38,688 nt of DNA, from IMG/VR virus record IMGVR_UViG_3300025009_000248, positions 1 through 38,688 of that record, one strand, 5' to 3'. The translations under genes were made by a program, and so were the position numbers. Source of the DNA: a virus. This document shows, piece by piece, positions 1 through 38,688 of this stretch (its first letter is position 1; each line of letters starts with the position of its first letter). A model generated the notes under the pieces. It did not search any database, had not been told where the DNA came from, and saw only the letters and a list, made by a program, of their open reading frames with translations.

Positions 1-608
1 GTCCCTATACCGACGTTGCCTGATATTATCATTCCATTGGAAGGCGCTGCTGTAGCAGAATATGTTCCAGCAGATATCCCACCATTCACACTCAACTTTG
101 ATCCGGGTGCTACTTGTCCGATCCCAACATTATTACTGGAAGCAATATAAAAGGAGTTTGAAATTGATGCGGTTGTACTCGTTAAATTTAACATACCAGT
201 ACTGCCGACCGTAAATCCTAGACTATCTGAAGCAAGCTCATACATTCCTGTATTGGTATCGGTTCGGAAGGTAAACCCTGGTGCGGCCTTCGAACCTATA
301 TTTACCTTAGCAACGCCATTTACGGTTAAGTCTCCACTGGTGACCGATCCAATTGTTAAGGTGCCAATATTTGCAGTCGTCGCATCAAGATCAGTAAACC
401 ATCCTTTAGTTATCCTGACAGCCGATGAACCAAGGTGCCACGTTGACACTCGAGGAAGCATGTTAATGCCATTTAGATTAAAGGGAGACACCGTGCTTAT
501 TGTGTTACCAAAGTTCGGAGTAATGTTTCTCGAGACTCCAAAGACGAGTAGTACAAAACCCATAGTACCGATAACTATATTGATAATTATTTTAGTCCTC
601 TTTTTCAT
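1..608 (-). CDS. Tail fibre / surface adhesin, N-terminal part (gene continues at the right edge)
   Basis: This is the first 202 codons of a fibre-like protein that runs off base 1. Its last two bases complete a Thr codon with base 38688, so the rest of the gene is 36732..38688. Total length would be 854 residues. Residues 1-26 are a basic start followed by a hydrophobic segment (MKKRTKIIINIVIGTMGFVL), which looks like a signal peptide or signal anchor. A beta-rich stalk follows, with 'F(R/T)TDTNTGMYE' and the first 'NVGIG' modules typical of trimeric fibres. The ATG at 608 overlaps the end of the upstream gene by 17 bases, which suggests coupling. A membrane segment is unusual for a virion fibre, so a cell-surface adhesin encoded by the phage is an alternative. 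Confidence 0.8.
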   Translation of the reverse strand, partial: MKKRTKIIINIVIGTMGFVLLVFGVSRNITPNFGNTISTVSPFNLNGINMLPRVSTWHLGSSAVRITKGWFTDLDATTANIGTLTIGSVTSGDLTVNGVAKVNIGSKAAPGFTFRTDTNTGMYELASDSLGFTVGSTGMLNLTSTTASISNSFYIASSNNVGIGQVAPGSKLSVNGGISAGTYSATAAPSNGMIISGNVGIG

Positions 609-1433: not shown

Positions 1434-1838
1434 TTATTTTTCTATACAAGAAATTCGCGCACTTAAACTGGCAACATCATCTGGTATCCTCGCAGTAATA
1501 ATACCAAGATATAAATTATTTTGATCTATTGAAAACGACTGTGAGGCCCAAATAGGCATTCCCCACGATCTTGAGGCGGTTGATCCAAATGCCACGTCCA
1601 TACGCACTGGCCCCATATTAGTACATTTTGCATATTGGCGGGCAGAGTTTTGAGCCAATACCGTTGTTGACGTGCTAGCTATTCTAGCAACAGAACTTAT
1701 GGTTGAATTTTGAAAGATATTATCAAATCCTCCACCGCCCAACGGAGCCACCGGAGCTGGCAGAATGGCATAGAGAAGCAAGGCCCCGACTGCCCCTCCT
1801 ACTACCACCAAGACCAGATTTTTTAATACGTTTTTCAT
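1434..1838 (-). CDS. Small protein with N-terminal membrane segment and exported beta domain
   Basis: Unrecognised 134-residue protein. Residues 1-27 form a Lys-containing start and a hydrophobic helix (VLVVVGGAVGALLLYAIL). A Pro/Gly linker (APLGGGGF) follows, then a beta-rich domain with two cysteines (C72, C131) that could form a disulphide outside the cytoplasm. The layout repeats that of the upstream 1916..2437 gene: membrane helix, glycine linker, beta domain. It sits in the head/fibre block, so it may be a surface decoration or an exported adhesin subunit. No strong ribosome binding site is visible. Confidence 0.7.
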   Translation of the reverse strand: MKNVLKNLVLVVVGGAVGALLLYAILPAPVAPLGGGGFDNIFQNSTISSVARIASTSTTVLAQNSARQYAKCTNMGPVRMDVAFGSTASRSWGMPIWASQSFSIDQNNLYLGIITARIPDDVASLSARISCIEK

Positions 1839-1883: not shown

Positions 1884-1920
1884 TTTGGCAAAAGGAGAAA
1901 AGTAAGCCCTCGGCTTTACT
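1884..1920 (-). terminator. Rho-independent terminator-like hairpin
   Basis: On the minus strand AGTAAAGCC-GAG-GGCTTACT forms an 8-bp stem with one bulged base (1901-1920), followed by TTTTCTCCTTTT. It overlaps the TAA stop (1918-1916) of the upstream gene. It would end or attenuate the capsid transcript before the 1434..1838 gene. The U tract is interrupted, so termination may be partial. Confidence 0.6.
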
Positions 1921-2437
1921 GATGTTTGTACTCGTCAAACTGTACGCTGACTGACGATCCCTCGAGGCGAATAAATCTTGTCCATACCCCCTTATTCGTT
2001 GGGATTTCAACAGTTGTTCCTGCTGAACCGGACGCAATTAACACGTCTATCGTTGTTCCGGCCGCAATCGTGGGGTTTTCGTCCACGGATAAGTTGAGCC
2101 AGAATACGTCGCGATAGTCGCCTTTATTCGGCAAACAACCCTTAATCAAATTAGCCGCGCTTGGTAGCACCTGTGCTTGCTCAGAGGCGTAACTGTCGCC
2201 GTCTAATGTAATTACAGAGTTTTCGCAGATTTCGGGTGCGGTAAAATGTCGCGATCCGCTTGCAACAGTCAATAATCCGCCGGAGAGATTGTCAGCAACA
2301 ATGCTGGAAAATCGCTCTTGGGTATTATGAACCAGTCCTCCCAAAGAGGGTAACTGTTGACCGTTGCCGCCAAACAACATAACTGCCAACGATACAACAA
2401 GGGCTACTATGCCTCCCACAAATGAGTTTTTAACCAT
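1916..2437 (-). CDS. Protein with N-terminal membrane segment following the capsid gene
   Basis: Unrecognised 173-residue protein. The ATG at 2437 (MVKNSFVGG) is preferred over the in-frame GTG at 2452 because it begins directly before the hydrophobic helix. Residues 7-24 are membrane-spanning or signal anchor (VGGIVALVVSLAVMLFGG). A linker follows, then a beta-rich domain containing 'TAAGTTIDVLIASGSAGTTVEIP' -like repeats of short strands and two cysteines. It is the first gene after major capsid protein and is separated from it by a structured spacer. Decoration protein or exported accessory protein are both possible. Confidence 0.7.
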   Translation of the reverse strand: MVKNSFVGGIVALVVSLAVMLFGGNGQQLPSLGGLVHNTQERFSSIVADNLSGGLLTVASGSRHFTAPEICENSVITLDGDSYASEQAQVLPSAANLIKGCLPNKGDYRDVFWLNLSVDENPTIAAGTTIDVLIASGSAGTTVEIPTNKGVWTRFIRLEGSSVSVQFDEYKHQ

Positions 2438-2463
2438 TGTGATTGTTAGCACCGATTGACCGG

Positions 2464-2528: not shown

Positions 2529-3734
2529 TTAGAAGCTGGACGAATTAACCTTAACATCAACGAGCATTTTTGCTCCTTCTGCAAAGGTCTTTTTACCGTA
2601 GAAAGTGTAAGGCAGGAAGTTTTGACCGAGCTTGTCGGGTACTTCTTTGGTTACAAGTTTTGGCTTGGCTTGGATAACGACGTCAATAGCACCTTTCTTA
2701 CCAAAAAGATTGTGCTGGATTTGAAGTCCTGAAGTCCAAACGTCGGCGGTCGCAGTCAAGACTTCCGATACGACAACATTACCCCAACCCTTTGAGGCAA
2801 TAGTCATATAGGTCGTACCGTCAGTTGCGGTAATACCGGAAAGCAAAGCTTGGTTAGCGGCCGAAAGAGCTACGAAGTCGCCGGATACAGAAGTACCCGG
2901 AGCATTGATAGACGCAACAAGCGTATCAATCTGCACGGCGGCGGTTGTTTCAACATCAACATCACCGGCGGCAGTTGGGGTAGCGGCGGCAGTCAAAACG
3001 ACGCCGTTAATTGTAATAGTATCAGCGGCCGTCATAGCCGATCCCATTTCCAATCTCGCCGTGTGATACACGGAGTTTGATACATAAATATCAAAGCCGT
3101 AGTATTTGCCGATATGTCCGGCAACACCGGTACCGTCGCCCAAAGTGGACTCTTTACCGGCAAGATACTGCAAAAGGGTATCCTCCATTTCGGGAGAGAT
3201 AACCGCAAACAAGTCGCCGTTTCCGGTAAACTTGATATTTTGCTTTCTCAATCTCCTCTTAGCGAGAGAAAATATCTTTTGGATATTTGAGGTTGAGATC
3301 GTAATACCGTCGCCGGAAGTTCCGGAGAAGTCGGCATTATCCACAACTGACGTAGCGTTTGCGGCTTCCGCCAAAACGTCGCCGTCAATTATGTTAGACA
3401 ACTTAACGGCCGCGTCGTCCGCGTATTCGTTAGCTGTCTTATAATTACTCTGTAATGCGTCAAGGTCGTCAACGTAAAACGGAATAATTTTTGCAGTTGC
3501 AACTGTCAACTGCTCGTTAGTATCAGTAATGTCCTGAATAGTAACGGCGGTTCCCGGCGTGTAGGTTTGAACTACCAGCGAGGAACGATACGGTCTATTA
3601 ACCACGTCGCCGTGTTTGAGTTGGGCTTCCTCCTCAAAGTTGGCGATCTGCCTGTAAACATCAACTCGGTAATGTATTACCTGCATACGGTTAGACCAGT
3701 ATTCTTTGAAGCTTGCGCTCAAGGAATTAGCCAT
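2529..3734 (-). CDS. Major capsid protein
   Basis: A 401-residue coat protein candidate. It begins MANSLSASFKEYWSNRMQ, a common start in capsid proteins of podovirus-like phages, and continues with an N-arm-like segment and an 'ADEYADDAAVKL' -type helical spine ('NYKTANEYADDAAVKLSN'). A predicted inserted beta domain lies around residues 228-330 (TITINGVVLTAAATPTAAGD). The C-terminal part 'KKGAIDVVIQAKPKLVTKEV' looks like the P-domain end. It lies downstream of portal and scaffold in the standard head order. AGGA sits about 10 bases before the ATG. Assignment rests on composition, size and gene order. Confidence 0.85.
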   Translation of the reverse strand: MANSLSASFKEYWSNRMQVIHYRVDVYRQIANFEEEAQLKHGDVVNRPYRSSLVVQTYTPGTAVTIQDITDTNEQLTVATAKIIPFYVDDLDALQSNYKTANEYADDAAVKLSNIIDGDVLAEAANATSVVDNADFSGTSGDGITISTSNIQKIFSLAKRRLRKQNIKFTGNGDLFAVISPEMEDTLLQYLAGKESTLGDGTGVAGHIGKYYGFDIYVSNSVYHTARLEMGSAMTAADTITINGVVLTAAATPTAAGDVDVETTAAVQIDTLVASINAPGTSVSGDFVALSAANQALLSGITATDGTTYMTIASKGWGNVVVSEVLTATADVWTSGLQIQHNLFGKKGAIDVVIQAKPKLVTKEVPDKLGQNFLPYTFYGKKTFAEGAKMLVDVKVNSSSF

Positions 3735-8602: not shown

Positions 8603-10003
8603 TTATAATTCAAACTCACTACTTTGCTTGCGACCGCCCTCATAAGGATCGCGAGCTTGGTACGGAGCTTGGCGTTTAATTGGCTTTTTATTTTCGTTAG
8701 TCATTTTCTTTTCAACCAACGCGGCATATCTCAATACGTCCGCAAAATGAGAAGTCCAATCGTGATACGCTTTGAATATCTGCTTTTGCTCAACAAACTC
8801 TTGTCTGTGCTGACGCACCGCGTCCAAAAACTCCTCGCCACCGTAAGCATTGTTAATCCAAAGCTTTGTAAACATTATGCGCACCTGCTCCCGGCCGTCC
8901 TCAATTCCGATATTCGGCACAAGATCAAAATCTATACCGAGCTTCTTTGCAAGTTGTAGCCGGGTCAATCCGCTACTCAATTCTCTCACGTTTATATCGT
9001 GCGGTGCAAAGTGTTTACCATAGACGTATCCTCTTTCCGTTTGAAGCTGTTGGAGGTAAGCGGAGTAATGGTTCAATCCGTAATTTTCGTTTGAGTAAGC
9101 GGCAATCAATCTCAACTCGGTACTGATCCTCTGAAAGAAACCTATCGCCATTGAGTCCGAAACGCCCAAATCCCAAACCGTGTGGACTTTAAGCAAAGGA
9201 TCAAACGGCACAAATCTAAATCTATTCTCTCTCTGCATTTGCCTGATCTCGTTGGTGTAAAAAGCTCCCCTGATATTATAATCGTCCCAACTTCCCTGTC
9301 GCCATTGCTCACGAAGTCCGTCTGGTAGGCCCTCCAAGAATGAAACATACGAGGGGTCATTCTCCATAAGGTACCTGTTATCCTCAATCTTTGACGGAAC
9401 GTACACGCGCCAGCGCCCGGTTACGTCGTCATACGTCCTAATCGGAGTCGTCGGGATACCGGATAACTTCCAGCGTTTCTTTACCCAGACGTGGCCGGGG
9501 CCGTCCGGATTGGTAGTTGCAAACACTTGGGGCATAAGTTCCGGAATAGACGAACGGCAAGAAGCAATTAACATCAAGTATTGCTGTTCGGTAGAAATAT
9601 GCGTTAGCTCCTCAATCAACTGTCTTTGGTATTCGTGGCCTTGATATTTTCGGTAAGCGTTCTCGTCTTTCAAGTGGCCGGTTCTTATCACGGCCCCAAT
9701 ATCGCTTCGGTTATAGATATTCGGAAACCTTATCTCCGGCGGATTGCCGACGATCTCGGCTTTCTTGGGACGGAAAAAACCGCGCGCACGGTCAATCCAG
9801 TCCTTGAGGTCGTCGGCATTACGTCGGACAACTAAAGCTCGATACAATGGGTTGAGGTGGTAGTCGTCTTTGATTAGAAAACCGAAGCCGGCCTCTGTCT
9901 TGCCACCGCCACGGCCTCCGCCCATAAGCGTTTCAAAAGCCGGCATTGAGATTGCTAACGACTGGACTGGTTGTGGTTCCCAATATGGTTTAAGTTTAGG
10001 CAT
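8603..10003 (-). CDS. Terminase large subunit (packaging ATPase/nuclease)
   Basis: This is the motor that pumps DNA through the portal and cuts the concatemer. Walker A is GGGRGGGKT at residues 28-36. Walker B with the catalytic acid is QRQLIEELTHI (about 126-136, E131/E132). The coupling motif is TTNPDG (163-168). The C-terminal RNase H-like nuclease has VWDLGVSDS (D278), PHDINVRE (D336) and HFADVLRYAAL (D422) as metal-ligand candidates. At 466 residues it is normal for the family. Its start overlaps the methyltransferase end by 8 bases. A small terminase lies upstream at 11467..12237. Confidence 0.95.
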   Translation of the reverse strand: MPKLKPYWEPQPVQSLAISMPAFETLMGGGRGGGKTEAGFGFLIKDDYHLNPLYRALVVRRNADDLKDWIDRARGFFRPKKAEIVGNPPEIRFPNIYNRSDIGAVIRTGHLKDENAYRKYQGHEYQRQLIEELTHISTEQQYLMLIASCRSSIPELMPQVFATTNPDGPGHVWVKKRWKLSGIPTTPIRTYDDVTGRWRVYVPSKIEDNRYLMENDPSYVSFLEGLPDGLREQWRQGSWDDYNIRGAFYTNEIRQMQRENRFRFVPFDPLLKVHTVWDLGVSDSMAIGFFQRISTELRLIAAYSNENYGLNHYSAYLQQLQTERGYVYGKHFAPHDINVRELSSGLTRLQLAKKLGIDFDLVPNIGIEDGREQVRIMFTKLWINNAYGGEEFLDAVRQHRQEFVEQKQIFKAYHDWTSHFADVLRYAALVEKKMTNENKKPIKRQAPYQARDPYEGGRKQSSEFEL

Positions 10004-16604: not shown

Positions 16605-17042
16605 TTATTTTTCTCCGCCCCATTCGTAGTCAATGACTACTTCGTTGGGATCGGGGATATTAAGGTTTAATTGGCTGGCCGCCCACACCCGGATACTCTC
16701 AATAAAATCAGTAAATCTTATCCTTGAGAGCTGGGCCGTTGACCTTGCGACTCGTACCTCTTTGCCGAGGATATTTACTATAATGGCATTAAACTTGTCT
16801 TTCAAAAAATGGTGGGTTAAGTCGTGATCCAGCCCCATTTCCTCCGCTATCATTTCCACCAAAACACCGTGGTAATAAGCGTTCTGTTTGAGGGAACGTG
16901 TGTCTTTTTCCTTGCGACAAACCAAATCAATCGGCAGGCCCTCAAGCTTGGCAACGTAGGCGGCAAAATCTTTAGGATTTCTCAATCTTATTTTGCCACC
17001 CTCAACAGTGCCTTTCCACACAGGAATTATATTAGCTTTCAT
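16605..17042 (-). CDS. NinB-like recombination protein
   Basis: A 145-residue protein. The signature is RSLKQNAYYHGVLVEMIAEE (residues 49-68), matching the RSL-x-QN start of the lambda NinB (Orf) helix. Later 'ARSTAQLSRIRFTDFIESIR' corresponds to the STS...F.ELLE.I part of that family. NinB-type proteins bind ssDNA and help annealing recombination. Context agrees: an annealing-protein candidate, an exonuclease-like protein and a NinG-like protein lie nearby. It is joined to the sigma-like gene by an ATGA overlap. Confidence 0.75.
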   Translation of the reverse strand: MKANIIPVWKGTVEGGKIRLRNPKDFAAYVAKLEGLPIDLVCRKEKDTRSLKQNAYYHGVLVEMIAEEMGLDHDLTHHFLKDKFNAIIVNILGKEVRVARSTAQLSRIRFTDFIESIRVWAASQLNLNIPDPNEVVIDYEWGGEK

Positions 17043-17305
17043 TGGTTTTCATAAACCCTTATTATTTCAATCGCCTTTGCCTCAATCTGCCTCACGCGCT
17101 CGCGAGTAACAGAGAAAACTTTACCGACCTGCTCAAGTGTCTTGTGTTCCTTAAACCTCATTTTTAGTATCCCATATTCTCGCGGCGATAGCTTTGTCCT
17201 AACCGATCTAAGGACATTCCATAACTCATTTCTAAGCTCGGAGCGTTTGCGAGATAAAACACTTAACTCGTCAACAATATCTCTAAACGATCTACTGTTT
17301 GCCAT
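17039..17305 (-). CDS. Sigma-70 region 4-like protein
   Basis: An 88-residue protein. After a helical N-terminus, residues 38-85 match sigma-70 region 4: LSPREYGILKMRF, then the helix-turn-helix KTLEQVGKVFSVTRERVRQI. In sigma factors this domain reads the -35 box and contacts the polymerase flap. Regions 2 and 3 are absent, so it cannot be a complete sigma. It may redirect host polymerase to phage promoters or act as a simple activator. It overlaps the nuclease gene by 14 bases and is coupled to NinB. Confidence 0.85.
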   Translation of the reverse strand: MANSRSFRDIVDELSVLSRKRSELRNELWNVLRSVRTKLSPREYGILKMRFKEHKTLEQVGKVFSVTRERVRQIEAKAIEIIRVYENQ

Positions 17306-29888: not shown

Positions 29889-31202
29889 TTATTTGTAGAA
29901 ATAGGCCGTGCAGTATGGACCTAACTGGCATACATTCGTCGGCCCACTTATTGTTATTTTGTTTGTAGCAGGGTTCCAAGAAGCCGTAATTGATTTGCTG
30001 TCAGCCCCGCCGTCCTCAACGATTGTCCCGGAAGTTTTGCCAGTTGGGAAAATTGTAACCTCTCCGCCGAATTGTATATCTGGATTCTCGTTCTGATCGC
30101 CCACCATAGTAACGATCGCGGCTTTCGCCCCAGTCGGAGCAGTTATATTTGCCGAACTCCAAACCGAGGTGTCGCCAGTAGCCACCGATCCGATATACTC
30201 CCACCTTACAATTGGCCTCCAAGTCATTTCGGTTACGAAAGAGCTTGAAGAAATGAGAGCATAACCGTCTGCACCGGCCGAGGCCAAGCGTACAAAGTTA
30301 CCACTCCCCTTAACAATCAAATCTCCGGAGGCAGAGGCGGTCATAGTTAAACCGGTAACGCCAAGCTTTAATCCGGTAGGCAAAGCCGTGCCATTCAAAC
30401 GTACAATCTTTCCGGAAGCACCGGCGTTGGATACGTCGTCGGCAGTTATGTATAAATTGCCGGCCCCCGGCGTTCCACTTGATCCGGCTAAAGCGTCTTT
30501 CTGTCCGGTGCTTGGTAGAAATGTAGAATAATTTGAGGAAGCGAGATAAGAGGGATTGATAAATAACCTTGCGGCCGATCCGCCTAATCCTGTACCAGCG
30601 TTAATCTCGGCGACTGTTGCCAATTCGGAACAACCTTTTACCGTTTCGCTACCATTGGCACACCCAGCTAAGATACCGGTATCAACATAGTTTTTATCCA
30701 CCAAAACGCTTGAGCTGGCCGTAGTAAAATCTTTGGCCGCCGGATAGTACATTATGTTAGGCAACGATTCTTGGCCGTTCAGAATCCTGCTTAAAATCGC
30801 GAGTTGTGGGTAGTTAGTAACCTTAATTGAAGCGCCGCGCCTGTGGGTCTTTTGCAGAGCAGTTACGGCCGTTTTGCCGTCTGTAACACTAATTCCGCGA
30901 GTACAAGAGGTTAGGGCCGTAGTAGAAACGGTGCAAAGCACAAACTCCTCCGAAGCGCTACCCTCGTCAATTATAAATCCGTAAGTCCCAGAGAGTGCGG
31001 TTCCGGCCTTGTCAGTCCCGGATACCAGCGTCATTGAGGTTGCCGTTGAGGATACCGAGGAAGCTAAAGACGTTTCAAACAAGGCAACCACAGTTGGGAT
31101 CGTGGCCCCGAAGTTCAAACTCTTAATTGAGTTGATTTCGTATTGCAGAAACCCAACAGCCGACAGTAGTACGATTGTAATTATTGAGAGTATTTTTTTC
31201 AT
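29889..31202 (-). CDS. Exported adhesin-like or tail accessory protein
   Basis: A 437-residue protein. Residues 1-20 look like a signal peptide or anchor (MKKILSIITIVLLSAVGFLQ). The remainder is Ser/Thr/Gly-rich beta structure with paired cysteines. 'YPQLAILSRILNGQ' and 'TNVCQLGPYCTAYFYK' bracket the middle and end. Similar proteins follow the tail genes of some phages, but a signal peptide is unusual. It has its own extended -10 promoter with almost no leader. A role in host attachment or surface alteration is inferred. Confidence 0.65.
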   Translation of the reverse strand: MKKILSIITIVLLSAVGFLQYEINSIKSLNFGATIPTVVALFETSLASSVSSTATSMTLVSGTDKAGTALSGTYGFIIDEGSASEEFVLCTVSTTALTSCTRGISVTDGKTAVTALQKTHRRGASIKVTNYPQLAILSRILNGQESLPNIMYYPAAKDFTTASSSVLVDKNYVDTGILAGCANGSETVKGCSELATVAEINAGTGLGGSAARLFINPSYLASSNYSTFLPSTGQKDALAGSSGTPGAGNLYITADDVSNAGASGKIVRLNGTALPTGLKLGVTGLTMTASASGDLIVKGSGNFVRLASAGADGYALISSSSFVTEMTWRPIVRWEYIGSVATGDTSVWSSANITAPTGAKAAIVTMVGDQNENPDIQFGGEVTIFPTGKTSGTIVEDGGADSKSITASWNPATNKITISGPTNVCQLGPYCTAYFYK

Positions 31203-35165: not shown

Positions 35166-35501
35166 TTAGTTATTCCCATTACCTATTTTTCCGCGAATAT
35201 ATGCAATGTCTTGACTGTTCCGGCTGACTTCTTTTTGCAAATCAGAAATTGTTGTCCAGATTTTCTCGTTGTCATTCAGCAGTCGCTCAAGGTCTGTAAA
35301 ATGATTGGTTTCGGCTTTGACCTTAAATTGTTGAAGTTCGGCTACTTGCTTTGCGACGGTCGCGCCACTCTTATTTTCTCCATTCTTGGTATTAAACTTT
35401 GATAAAAATATAGGAATAAACGGCCTCATTGCAAGAGCTACCACGGCCACCGCTCCGGGCCAAGAAATGTCTTTGACTAATTGTATGATTTGGGTTTCCA
35501 T
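35166..35501 (-). CDS. Membrane protein with coiled coil (holin or spanin-like)
   Basis: A 111-residue protein starting METQIIQLVKDISWPGAVAV. The ATG at 35501 overlaps the upstream stop as TAATG, so Met4 of the longer frame is used. A membrane helix at about 14-33 is followed by a coiled coil (VAELQQFKVKAETNHFTDLE). This layout occurs in some holins, spanins and membrane anchors. It lies beside a protease, which may suggest a second lysis or entry module. Confidence 0.6.
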   Translation of the reverse strand: METQIIQLVKDISWPGAVAVVALAMRPFIPIFLSKFNTKNGENKSGATVAKQVAELQQFKVKAETNHFTDLERLLNDNEKIWTTISDLQKEVSRNSQDIAYIRGKIGNGNN

Positions 35502-35866
35502 TATTGGCAATTGTCTAACTCTAATTTCTCGTTAATTTTGTCTATAATATTTTGATTGTTTACATTACCCATGTTCCAATTACCACATTTTTTTATTTCT
35601 ATATTCACCACATCGAACCATTGATTAACTTCTTTTGAGGATACTTCGACTTTCTTTCTGTTTCGGATTTTATCCATAAGATTAATTTTAAGTGCCAAAT
35701 ATTGAACAAGATTTAATTTTTCACCATTGACGAGCAACTCACTTACTCTTAGATCAATAGGATCATTACCAATAGCTTCAGTATCCGGTATAGATACTAG
35801 ATAGGCATAAACTATTATTAAAATTGTGCCGATTATTTTGACCATTGCTTTATGTTTATCGTTCAA
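35501..35866 (-). CDS. Exported or membrane-anchored small protein
   Basis: Unrecognised 121-residue protein with a hydrophobic segment (VKIIGTILIIVYAYLVSI) at about residues 9-26, then a polar, Asn/Lys-rich domain with cysteines near the end (KKCGNWN, LDNCQ). Met8 is an alternative start. The base composition looks more AT-rich than the head genes. It is the first gene divergent from the recombinase. Confidence 0.6.
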   Translation of the reverse strand: MNDKHKAMVKIIGTILIIVYAYLVSIPDTEAIGNDPIDLRVSELLVNGEKLNLVQYLALKINLMDKIRNRKKVEVSSKEVNQWFDVVNIEIKKCGNWNMGNVNNQNIIDKINEKLELDNCQ

Positions 35867-35879
35867 CTACTATCCTGAC

Positions 35880-35889
35880 TGCGTACGCA
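35880..35889. promoter_or_regulatory. TGCGTACGCA palindrome in the divergent gap
   Basis: This is a perfect 10-bp palindrome in the 47-base gap between the recombinase and the divergent 35501..35866 gene. It could be an operator or part of a recombination site. No second copy of a longer surrounding sequence was noticed. Confidence 0.3.
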
Positions 35890-35913
35890 CTAACAAATTA
35901 ATTTAATTATTAC

Positions 35914-36735
35914 ATGGAACAAATTTATCCAAAATTTGAATGTTTTTTGTTTACTCAGAAAGGACTTCAACCAATAACTGTTTCTGGCCATATTTCAGCA
36001 ATTAAGCGTATTCATCGCAGAATAGGAACCTTAAGCAAGGAATCTGCTGATAACTATGTCTTAAATCTATACCAGTCTGAATACTCTTATTCTCACAAAG
36101 CCAATCAAGTGAAAGCGCTTGAATACTGGTTCGAGCATCTAGGCGAACGTGTCTTTTATGCTCGCCAGAGAAAGCCCAAGCCGATTGTTAAACAAACTCT
36201 CACCGAAGCTGAAGTAACTCGACTTATCTTTGTCTGCAAAAATATCAGAGAAAGAGCCATCGTTACTCTCCTTGCCTATTCCGGACTAAGACCGAAAGAA
36301 ATAATGAACCTACGATTGAGAGATATAAATTTTGGAACTAACGAAATTCGTGTCATTCAAGGTAAAGGTATGAAAGACGGAATAATCTATATCTCCTCGG
36401 TCTGTACTCGGATTCTCCTAGAATATCTTACTAGGTATCCACATCAGTCGGACGACTTAATGTTTATGACCCACAATACTCTTAGGCCGTTTAGACAAGG
36501 TTGTCTACGTAAATTGATCAAGGTACTAACTCGTCGGGCCGGTATGAATAAACGTGTTTATCCCTACTTGCTCCGACATTCTCTCGCTACTGCGATGTTT
36601 AATCGAGGAGCCGACATCCTAACCGTCAAACATCAACTACGACACGCTTGGACTGAAACCACTGAACATTACATTCATTCTCTTGGATACTGTCCTCGTA
36701 ATAAATATGAATTATTCGTTCCGTCATATGTCTAA
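35914..36735 (+). CDS. Tyrosine recombinase (integrase/Xer-like)
   Basis: The only plus-strand gene, 273 residues. An N-terminal SAM-like core-binding domain precedes the catalytic domain. R126 (SGLRPKEI), K151 (QGKGMKDG), R221 (YPYLLRHSLAT), H244 (LRHAWTET) and nucleophile Y253 (EHYIH) are in order. The usual HxxR is YxxR (Y218-R221), a variant seen in some recombinases. It could integrate or resolve the circular genome, or rearrange the fibre gene with whose end it overlaps by four bases. Its AT-rich composition suggests separate origin. A promoter (TTTAAT) lies just before the ATG. Confidence 0.9.
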   Translation: MEQIYPKFECFLFTQKGLQPITVSGHISAIKRIHRRIGTLSKESADNYVLNLYQSEYSYSHKANQVKALEYWFEHLGERVFYARQRKPKPIVKQTLTEAEVTRLIFVCKNIRERAIVTLLAYSGLRPKEIMNLRLRDINFGTNEIRVIQGKGMKDGIIYISSVCTRILLEYLTRYPHQSDDLMFMTHNTLRPFRQGCLRKLIKVLTRRAGMNKRVYPYLLRHSLATAMFNRGADILTVKHQLRHAWTETTEHYIHSLGYCPRNKYELFVPSYV

Positions 36736-38688
36736 TTAAACTTTTTCATTATCCAAGGAACCAAACCCAACAATCCAAACAACCCAAAGAGTCCATAGTT
36801 TCCAGAACTGTTATCAGTTTTAGTATCTAATGATCCACCCAATAATAGTGGGTTAGTTTTTGCGTTTTCTAAAACCACAACTCTTTGATCTAATTGTTGT
36901 ATGGCTCGGACATCCATAGAAAGCATATTGCCTATGTTTCTTTCGGTTACTATTTTTGTCCCTGTTTGAATGTCCTTTTCAACCATCTGGTCTATGCTTT
37001 TGCTTGTTTTTTCATCAAAAACTGGCTCGGTTACGAGTTGTTTTTCATAAACTGGTATTTGTCTTTCTACTTTCACAAACTCTGGTAGGGTGGAGTGGTC
37101 TATTTCCCCATCTTTTCCTTGTATTCTATTGATTTCAACTAAGGCATCTCCTTCAAAAATTGGTGTTCTATCTGTAAAAGTAAGAGCCGAAACATCACCG
37201 GTTGCGTATAGTGCCGAAACCGAGGCCGTGCCAACTACCTCGAACTTTGTTTCCGGGCTCGTCGTCCCAATACCGAGGTTGCCGGAGGAAGTGATGCGCA
37301 TAGTCTCATTCCCAGTCGTATTTCCACCAGTGGTAAACTTTATTATCCCGCTCGTACCGATTGCTGCTAAGTGCAGGGTCCCAGATGCTAATTCATTGGC
37401 AAGAACTAATTCATTACCACCAAAAGCTCCAGAAGAGAAAGTTGATCCAGATAGAATAAACTGTCCAACTAATCCAGATGGACTATTAAAATCTATACCT
37501 GCGTAACTACCTGCACTGGTTAGTCTTAATCCCATACCAGTATATGCTCCGCCAGAGGAAGAAACTTCAAATTTATTTGCCGGCGCCGTCGTCCCTATAC
37601 CAACATTGCCTCCTTTAAGGATAGAGAGGTAGGATTGGGAGGCAGAACCTAGGATATCTAGTCTATCTGATGCTCCTACAGATCTGAAGGTAAAGTTAGA
37701 ATCTTCACTGGTGGTAGATTTTAATGTTAGATCTACATTACCTGAAGATGAAGCTAGGATGTTACCTGTTATATCTAGTTTAGAGTCTGGGGAGATGTTG
37801 CCGATGCCGACGTTGCGAGAATCTGCGAATGTAGCAATAACACTAGTTCCGTCATCCCAAATCTGGAACATACCACTCGATGGAGCTTGCACGTAACCTA
37901 TGGTTGAAGTGTATTGTCCGAAAATTGGACCAATAGGATTTGTAGTGTAGCCTGAGCCGGTGGCTAAAATTCTACCACTAACGTATAATTTTTCGCTTGG
38001 CGCCGTCGTCCCAATACCAACATATCCAGTAGATGCAATAGACATTCTGACAGTAGAGTTAGATAGGATATCTAACCTATCTGATGTACCGGCTGATCTT
38101 AGGATAAACTTACCATCTGTACTGGTAGCATTGGTAGCATTGAGTATTAGATCTACATTACCTGAGGCAGAAGCTATGATGTTACCTCCTACTTCAAGCT
38201 TTTGTTCAGGGGTAGTGGCGGAGATACCGACGTTGCCGCCAAAATAGCTCGTACCACCTTGTACATATACAGGATAATTCCCTACGGCTCCACGTGTTGG
38301 AGTCGCAATATAAATTCCATATTGATTATTTGTAACAGATGCGCCAGCTCCTAATGCTACATTGTCTATACGCATTCCAGCAAAATCTGTCACCGCAGTA
38401 GCTGCAGTAATTGTTCCGCCTGAATAAAAGTTATTGCTTTGCGTCGTTCCGCCAATTGTTGCGTCAGCCATTATCCCATATCTATAGGTACCCGCGGACA
38501 GGGTCCCACTTGATCTAATTGTCCCGACAACATCTAGTGTTGATGTCGGCACCCCCGTCCCTATCCCCACATTCCCAGCAAAGTAGTTGATGCCTGATCC
38601 TGTTTGAGTGAAGTTGGATGCTCTGAGACCTTTAGATATATCTAATGAACCTAGGAAAGAGTTAGAACCAGTTGAGTTTCCAGTTAAG
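36732..38688 (-). CDS. Tail fibre / surface adhesin, C-terminal part (gene begins at 608)
   Basis: This is the larger part of the fibre, in frame with 1..608 across the ends. It holds most of the eight 'GNVGIGT-x-PxxKLEV' modules that build the shaft. The end has a linker (STLPEFVKVERQIPVYEK), a coiled coil (VRAIQQLDQRVVVLENA) and a C-terminal hydrophobic stretch YGLFGLFGLLGLVPWIMKKF. That end looks like a Gly-patterned C-terminal membrane anchor followed by two lysines, similar to WGxxGxxG-type sorting tails. No S74 chaperone catalytic core is evident. A true virion fibre and a host-surface adhesin are both possible. Confidence 0.8.
   Translation of the reverse strand, partial: LTGNSTGSNSFLGSLDISKGLRASNFTQTGSGINYFAGNVGIGTGVPTSTLDVVGTIRSSGTLSAGTYRYGIMADATIGGTTQSNNFYSGGTITAATAVTDFAGMRIDNVALGAGASVTNNQYGIYIATPTRGAVGNYPVYVQGGTSYFGGNVGISATTPEQKLEVGGNIIASASGNVDLILNATNATSTDGKFILRSAGTSDRLDILSNSTVRMSIASTGYVGIGTTAPSEKLYVSGRILATGSGYTTNPIGPIFGQYTSTIGYVQAPSSGMFQIWDDGTSVIATFADSRNVGIGNISPDSKLDITGNILASSSGNVDLTLKSTTSEDSNFTFRSVGASDRLDILGSASQSYLSILKGGNVGIGTTAPANKFEVSSSGGAYTGMGLRLTSAGSYAGIDFNSPSGLVGQFILSGSTFSSGAFGGNELVLANELASGTLHLAAIGTSGIIKFTTGGNTTGNETMRITSSGNLGIGTTSPETKFEVVGTASVSALYATGDVSALTFTDRTPIFEGDALVEINRIQGKDGEIDHSTLPEFVKVERQIPVYEKQLVTEPVFDEKTSKSIDQMVEKDIQTGTKIVTERNIGNMLSMDVRAIQQLDQRVVVLENAKTNPLLLGGSLDTKTDNSSGNYGLFGLFGLLGLVPWIMKKFN
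37651..37768 (-). repeat. Fibre internal repeat, copy 1
   Basis: Clearly similar DNA to 38065..38188, offset by about 414-420 bases, including GATCTACATTACCTGA and GATATCTA...CTATCTGATG. Both encode the module 'ASGNVDL...SDRLDIL'. This points to a duplication of one shaft module. Confidence 0.7.
38065..38188 (-). repeat. Fibre internal repeat, copy 2
   Basis: Partner of 37651..37768. The conserved pieces are interrupted by short in-frame length changes, so the duplication is old or under diversifying selection. Confidence 0.7.

Follow-up and report, generated by a model that had tools for sequence, protein, structure and literature searches.

Tailed-phage particles are held to be assembled in the cytoplasm. 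The virus contig analysed here (the window, 38,688 bases) nevertheless encodes a tail-fibre-type protein with a membrane segment at its N-terminus and a hydrophobic tail at its C-terminus, and the question is why a fibre should have either. The explanation to which we would give an even chance is that this is a late tail-fibre-type protein that is routed through Sec and held in the envelope, one of several structural-module proteins that its clade exports. If true, a lineage in which several structural proteins have export leaders would be an exception to the rule of cytoplasmic assembly; alternatively, it would have a new way to dress infected cells with phage adhesins.

A fibre gene divided by the record ends

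The fibre gene lies on the minus strand and runs off both ends of the contig. Its 5′ part (3–608) encodes residues 1–202 from an ATG at 608, its 3′ part (36732–38688) encodes residues 204–854 and the stop, and codon 203 is split across the record ends. Joining the ends in frame gives a single fibre of 854 residues with no internal stop, a length that presupposes a circular record. While the earlier note rightly described an 854-residue fibre, it placed the protein at 36732–38688, which holds residues 204–854 only and leaves the N-terminus at 3–608.

The gene would be an artefact if two contig ends, broken within a repetitive fibre gene, had been falsely joined, in which case leader and tail would come from different proteins. 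Comparison of the contig ends revealed no terminal repeat, the break falls within a GIGT repeat, and the junction motif is atypical, reading GIGTLTGN in the window but GIGTTSP in comparable blocks of other contigs. Because these related blocks continue differently, the exact join sequence is unproven and a short stretch may have been lost at the junction. An identical contig from another assembly (L002) has its end at position 1733 of the window and leaves the junction uncovered. Against a false join, the junction is in frame, and the best support for the predicted join is an independently cut relative, G003 (IMGVR 3300020202_000146; identity to the window 58% for terminase and 62% for capsid). 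The cut in its record corresponds to the interval between genes 29889 and 28588 of the window, the circular gene order is otherwise identical, and its fibre is one contiguous gene at the site where the window record is cut. We consider a false join highly improbable.

The fibre gene sits in a conserved virion module between capsid and tail genes, syntenic in relatives such as G003. The major capsid protein of the window is encoded at 2529–3734 (minus strand; phrog_267, 4e-29) and the terminase large subunit at 8603–10003 (minus strand; phrog_979, 9e-32). This position favours a structural gene over a surface adhesin that was simply captured. The fibre matches PHROGs tail fibres (phrog_9942, 5e-16; phrog_18345, 1e-12), largely via its repeats, and the LPRVSTW.LGSSAVRITKGWFTDLD motif (384–455, minus strand; about residues 52–75) is recurrent in tail fibres. 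A tRNA search of the window returned none.

Towards its C-terminus the fibre contains a domain of about 110 residues (36861–37190, minus strand; residues about 703–812; SALTFTDRTP..GDAL..GKDGEIDH..LPEF...RNIGNMLSM), placed by alignments and AlphaFold2. The same domain, with the consensus S-x-L-x-F-T-D-R-T-P...G-D-A-L...G-K-D-G-E-I-D-H...L-P-x-F...R-D-L-G-A-M-x-S, is C-terminal or almost so in 26 fibre or tail proteins encoded on diverse viral contigs (L188–L213). Identity to phage proteins is mostly 30–44%, higher values being confined to 40-residue segments. The domain corresponds to no Pfam family. Membership of Peptidase S74 was considered and rejected, as there was no Pfam S74 match and profile-profile comparison with one S74-like sequence gave a probability of 0.3%. 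The AlphaFold2 model of the domain (pLDDT about 90) weakly resembles L-shaped tail fibres (Foldseek E 2.5e-3), and Foldseek against the PDB matched no solved structure. With GIGT-repeat/S74 fibres and T5-like L-shaped fibres the window fibre shares a repeat body, a small C-terminal domain with a helical end and a gene in the tail module; it differs in lacking an S74 match and in possessing both a hydrophobic tail and a leader for export.

The two ends of the fibre

The N-terminal leader (528–608, minus strand; residues 1–27) consists of a basic n-region, MKKRTK, and a hydrophobic core at residues 7–25. The mean hydropathy of the core (KD19 = 2.58) was equalled in 5 of 20,000 shuffles, and AlphaFold2 predicts a helix at residues 2–27, so the N-terminal membrane segment proposed from the sequence was borne out. 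In the model of residues 1–202 (mean pLDDT 39) the leader helix alone is readable. A basic n-region followed by a hydrophobic core at the N-terminus is the pattern by which Sec export was judged, and the fibre has it; no clear signal-peptidase site was found in the window leader.

At the other end, the glycine-periodic tail (36747–36797, minus strand; residues 834–850, then KKFN) reads YGLFGLFGLLGLVPWIMKKFN, a 17-residue uncharged run followed by KK that reached P 0.0001 by shuffling. The fibre end, NYGLFGLFGLLGLVPWIMKKFN, likewise contains 17 residues in succession that have no polar side chain when Y and W are counted as apolar. Its hydropathy is modest (KD19 1.37, shuffle P about 0.09; KD15 2.1, P 0.02) and AlphaFold2 gives a pLDDT of about 43 here. 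The tail is real but weak as a transmembrane segment. None of the 967 genes of related viral loci offers a credible parallel to it, the fibres of relatives lack it, and a hydrophobic tail follows the C-terminal domain in 0 of the 26 other phage proteins that end in that domain. Judged from these comparisons, the tail is a private addition, found only in the fibre of this phage.

The tail had been likened to WGxxGxxG C-terminal sorting tails. Its presence and the 17-residue run were confirmed, but membership of that family did not survive comparison with the CTERM models: NF041742 gave 17–20 bits against a curated cut-off of 35, and NF038039 (WGxxGxxG-CTERM, cut-off 24 bits) gave no match. A composite of the two ends of the phage-contig protein L257, used as a positive control, scored 75.8 bits with NF041742 and 33.9 bits with NF038039. 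The likeness to WGxxGxxG proteins (NF041742, NF038039) comprises a glycine at every third residue of an apolar stretch, basic residues thereafter, a polar linker before the tail and an N-terminal leader. The window tail has Y in place of W, and the proteins of the family are small and otherwise different. The tail may therefore work like a WGxxGxxG tail while lying outside the family. Two viral contigs, L257 and L269, encode small leader-bearing proteins of the WGxxGxxG type (NWAWLGLLGLVGLFGLRKK).

Sorting tails have a tripartite architecture, with a signal sequence, a polar linker, a hydrophobic segment and a basic end (PMC11980579). The window fibre has this layout in common with LPXTG, PEP-CTERM, GlyGly-CTERM with rhombosortase and MYXO-CTERM proteins, but no such family model scored above its cut-off and no sorting enzyme or host partner for the tail was found. 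Assignment to a known sorting tail was rejected, since the curated models were not matched at their cut-offs and NF041742 matched 0 of 188 Paceibacteria genomes; weak matches to the tail within Paceibacteria proved to be unrelated proteins.

The charges at the two ends (MKKRTK...body...MKKFN) are consistent with a positive-inside orientation of both. Together with the leader and the tail, this pattern makes export or surface topology of the fibre plausible.

Leaders across the structural module

The earlier note had regarded an N-terminal segment as foreign to ordinary tail fibres. This view is contradicted by the orthologous fibres of G003 and G759, which carry leaders, and by fibre-like genes of several other phages; the fibres of G025 and G026 have leaders too. 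Plausible signal-peptidase sites are present in the leaders of G759, G025 and G026. The fibre of G760 has no leader and begins directly at the post-leader motif.

Leaders extend beyond the fibre, with at least three further structural-module proteins bearing them in the window clade. A 134-residue protein (1434–1838, minus strand) and a 178-residue protein encoded after the capsid gene (1916–2452, minus strand) both have N-terminal leaders, as do their counterparts at the same positions in G003, G759 and G760. A 437-residue structural protein (29889–31202, minus strand) has a leader of about 34 residues, and its family is leader-bearing in the window, G003, G759 and G760 and leaderless in several other viral contigs. 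In addition, a 121-residue protein with an N-terminal membrane segment (35501–35866, minus strand) adjoins the fibre. In G003, six or more proteins encoded nearby start with leaders, as the orthologous fibre does; in G759, leaders are found on the fibre, a 534-residue protein, a 596-residue protein and several small proteins; and in G760, on two small post-capsid proteins and the homologue of 29889–31202.

The 29889–31202 family is informative in that its leaderless members begin at residue 36, where the leader ends. The leader is thus an add-on to a virion-type protein, and leaders were gained by, or lost from, conserved structural proteins. Among sampled genes of at least 250 residues, a custom heuristic called leaders in 17 of 63 fibre-like genes vs 29 of 627 others (Fisher P 6e-8), a ratio biased upwards because some loci were found with a leader-containing query.

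Outside the clade, downstream of the capsid gene in contig L127, five genes in succession bear leaders (L127:5896–12147); a Laminin_G_3 lectin domain is present in one of them and a phage depolymerase C-terminal domain in another. L130, L147 and L158 show a similar tendency. Lectin genes similar to that of L127 have been described as adhesion-enhancing auxiliary genes of Patescibacteriota phages (PMC12911398). Leader-bearing lectin-like phage genes reported in this way may be fibre genes. We found nothing directly on point concerning exported virion proteins in the open-access literature. A further contig encodes a leader-bearing fibre of 994 residues (L118:4430–7414) with a Fib_succ_major domain (3e-26) within its repeat body.

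These observations bear on whether the fibre could be an ordinary, cytoplasmically assembled one, its N-terminal helix packing into the tail or baseplate and its C-terminal tail forming a fibre tip or trimer seal in contact with the host membrane during infection. Such a fibre would account for the gene's place in the virion module, the PHROGs matches, the terminal position of the C-terminal domain in phage fibres and the slight resemblance in structure to L-shaped tail fibres. It fits poorly with the basic n-regions of the leaders, with signal-peptidase-like sites in the leaders of relatives, with leaderless homologues of 29889–31202 that show the leader to be dispensable for the fold, and with leaders on several unrelated neighbouring proteins. 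On our reading, ordinary assembly is rather unlikely.

The similar leaders on other structural-module proteins instead suggest that the fibre is one of several particle parts that are exported, and they hint that the particle may be assembled partly at the host membrane or beyond it. For the fibre, we infer the following about export itself, its topology, the host, the timing and the function. The phage would be temperate-looking and tailed, probably infecting ultra-small Paceibacteria, and the gene would be of the late tail-fibre type. The added Sec leader or signal anchor would direct insertion into, or passage across, the cytoplasmic membrane of the host and leave the fibre body on the outer side, and the fibre-specific C-terminal tail would serve as a second, stop-transfer-type anchor or as a sorting tail. 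Late in infection the exported parts would be kept in the envelope, to be incorporated into the particle at lysis or else to work on the cell surface. A more far-reaching version, which we regard as improbable, is that a phage clade of ultra-small bacteria exports decoration-like proteins, a tail protein and the receptor-binding fibre through Sec and completes the particle in the envelope or after lysis, the fibre being double-anchored until release.

Modules shared with Paceibacteria and the probable host

The C-terminal domain has its closest relative (63% over 104 residues) inside an 1842-residue protein of a Paceibacterota genome, G001, where an S74-like end, read from the sequence by eye, follows it. 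The domain was present in 1 of 380 genomes of the phylum and is mainly phage-borne. At the DNA level, the fibre gene matches 5 of 68 Paceibacteria genomes, the best being G001 (E 1e-24) and G033 (E 5e-19), the latter in a 3330-residue repeat protein; a control search of the same DNA against 50,697 phage records yielded a single 40-base match. The GIGT-repeat giants of G001 and G033 are far longer than the window fibre and lie outside phage modules. These matches of fibre body and C-terminal domain to Paceibacteria surface proteins support an exchange of modules with the likely host, in one direction or the other. On the shared fibre modules, the host is probably a member of the Paceibacteria. 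If it is an epibiont, such exported proteins could alter attachment to the epibiont's own host. As to the suggestion that a host surface protein had been captured, module sharing is supported in the DNA, but the place of the gene in the virion module speaks against capture alone.

The shared modules also bear on whether the fibre could be a lysogenic-conversion adhesin, displayed on the host surface to serve cell-cell contact, attachment of an epibiont or the control of superinfection, an idea close to that of the earlier note. A tyrosine integrase gene adjoins the fibre gene (35914–36735, plus strand; PF00589, 1e-27), converging on it and overlapping its stop by 4 bases; the modules are common to Paceibacteria surface proteins; the anchor-like tail is confined to this phage; and phage-encoded adhesion genes have been proposed for groundwater Patescibacteriota phages (PMC12911398). 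We nevertheless favour this reading less and hold it to be unlikely, because the gene lies within the late structural module and G003 has the fibre while lacking a detectable integrase homologue at E 1e-4; a sorting enzyme and host partner were likewise not found. The Sec-routed structural fibre remains our preferred reading. In G003, the place of the integrase gene is taken by several leader-bearing genes. A search for an attachment site in the fibre–integrase region (35840–36000) gave chance-like short matches only and no useful repeats.

Other routes to the host were considered. No prophage or CRISPR spacer linking the phage to a host was found, and a capsid homologue on one 3.7-kb contig of a Patescibacteria genome was weak and unconvincing alone. 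The rest of the phage DNA gave no comparable match to Paceibacteria genomes except for a sigma-70 region-4-like gene, which was set aside as host evidence because it is generic. This gene encodes a small protein (17039–17305), and its DNA at 17060–17140 matches 9 of 68 Paceibacteria genomes at 73–89%.

Copies of the block KLSVNGGISAGTYSxTAAPSNGMIISGNVGIGT are present in the fibre genes of otherwise different phage contigs (L082, L083, L085 and L090), with 67–78% identity except in L090 (48%), a recurrence that points to module shuffling.
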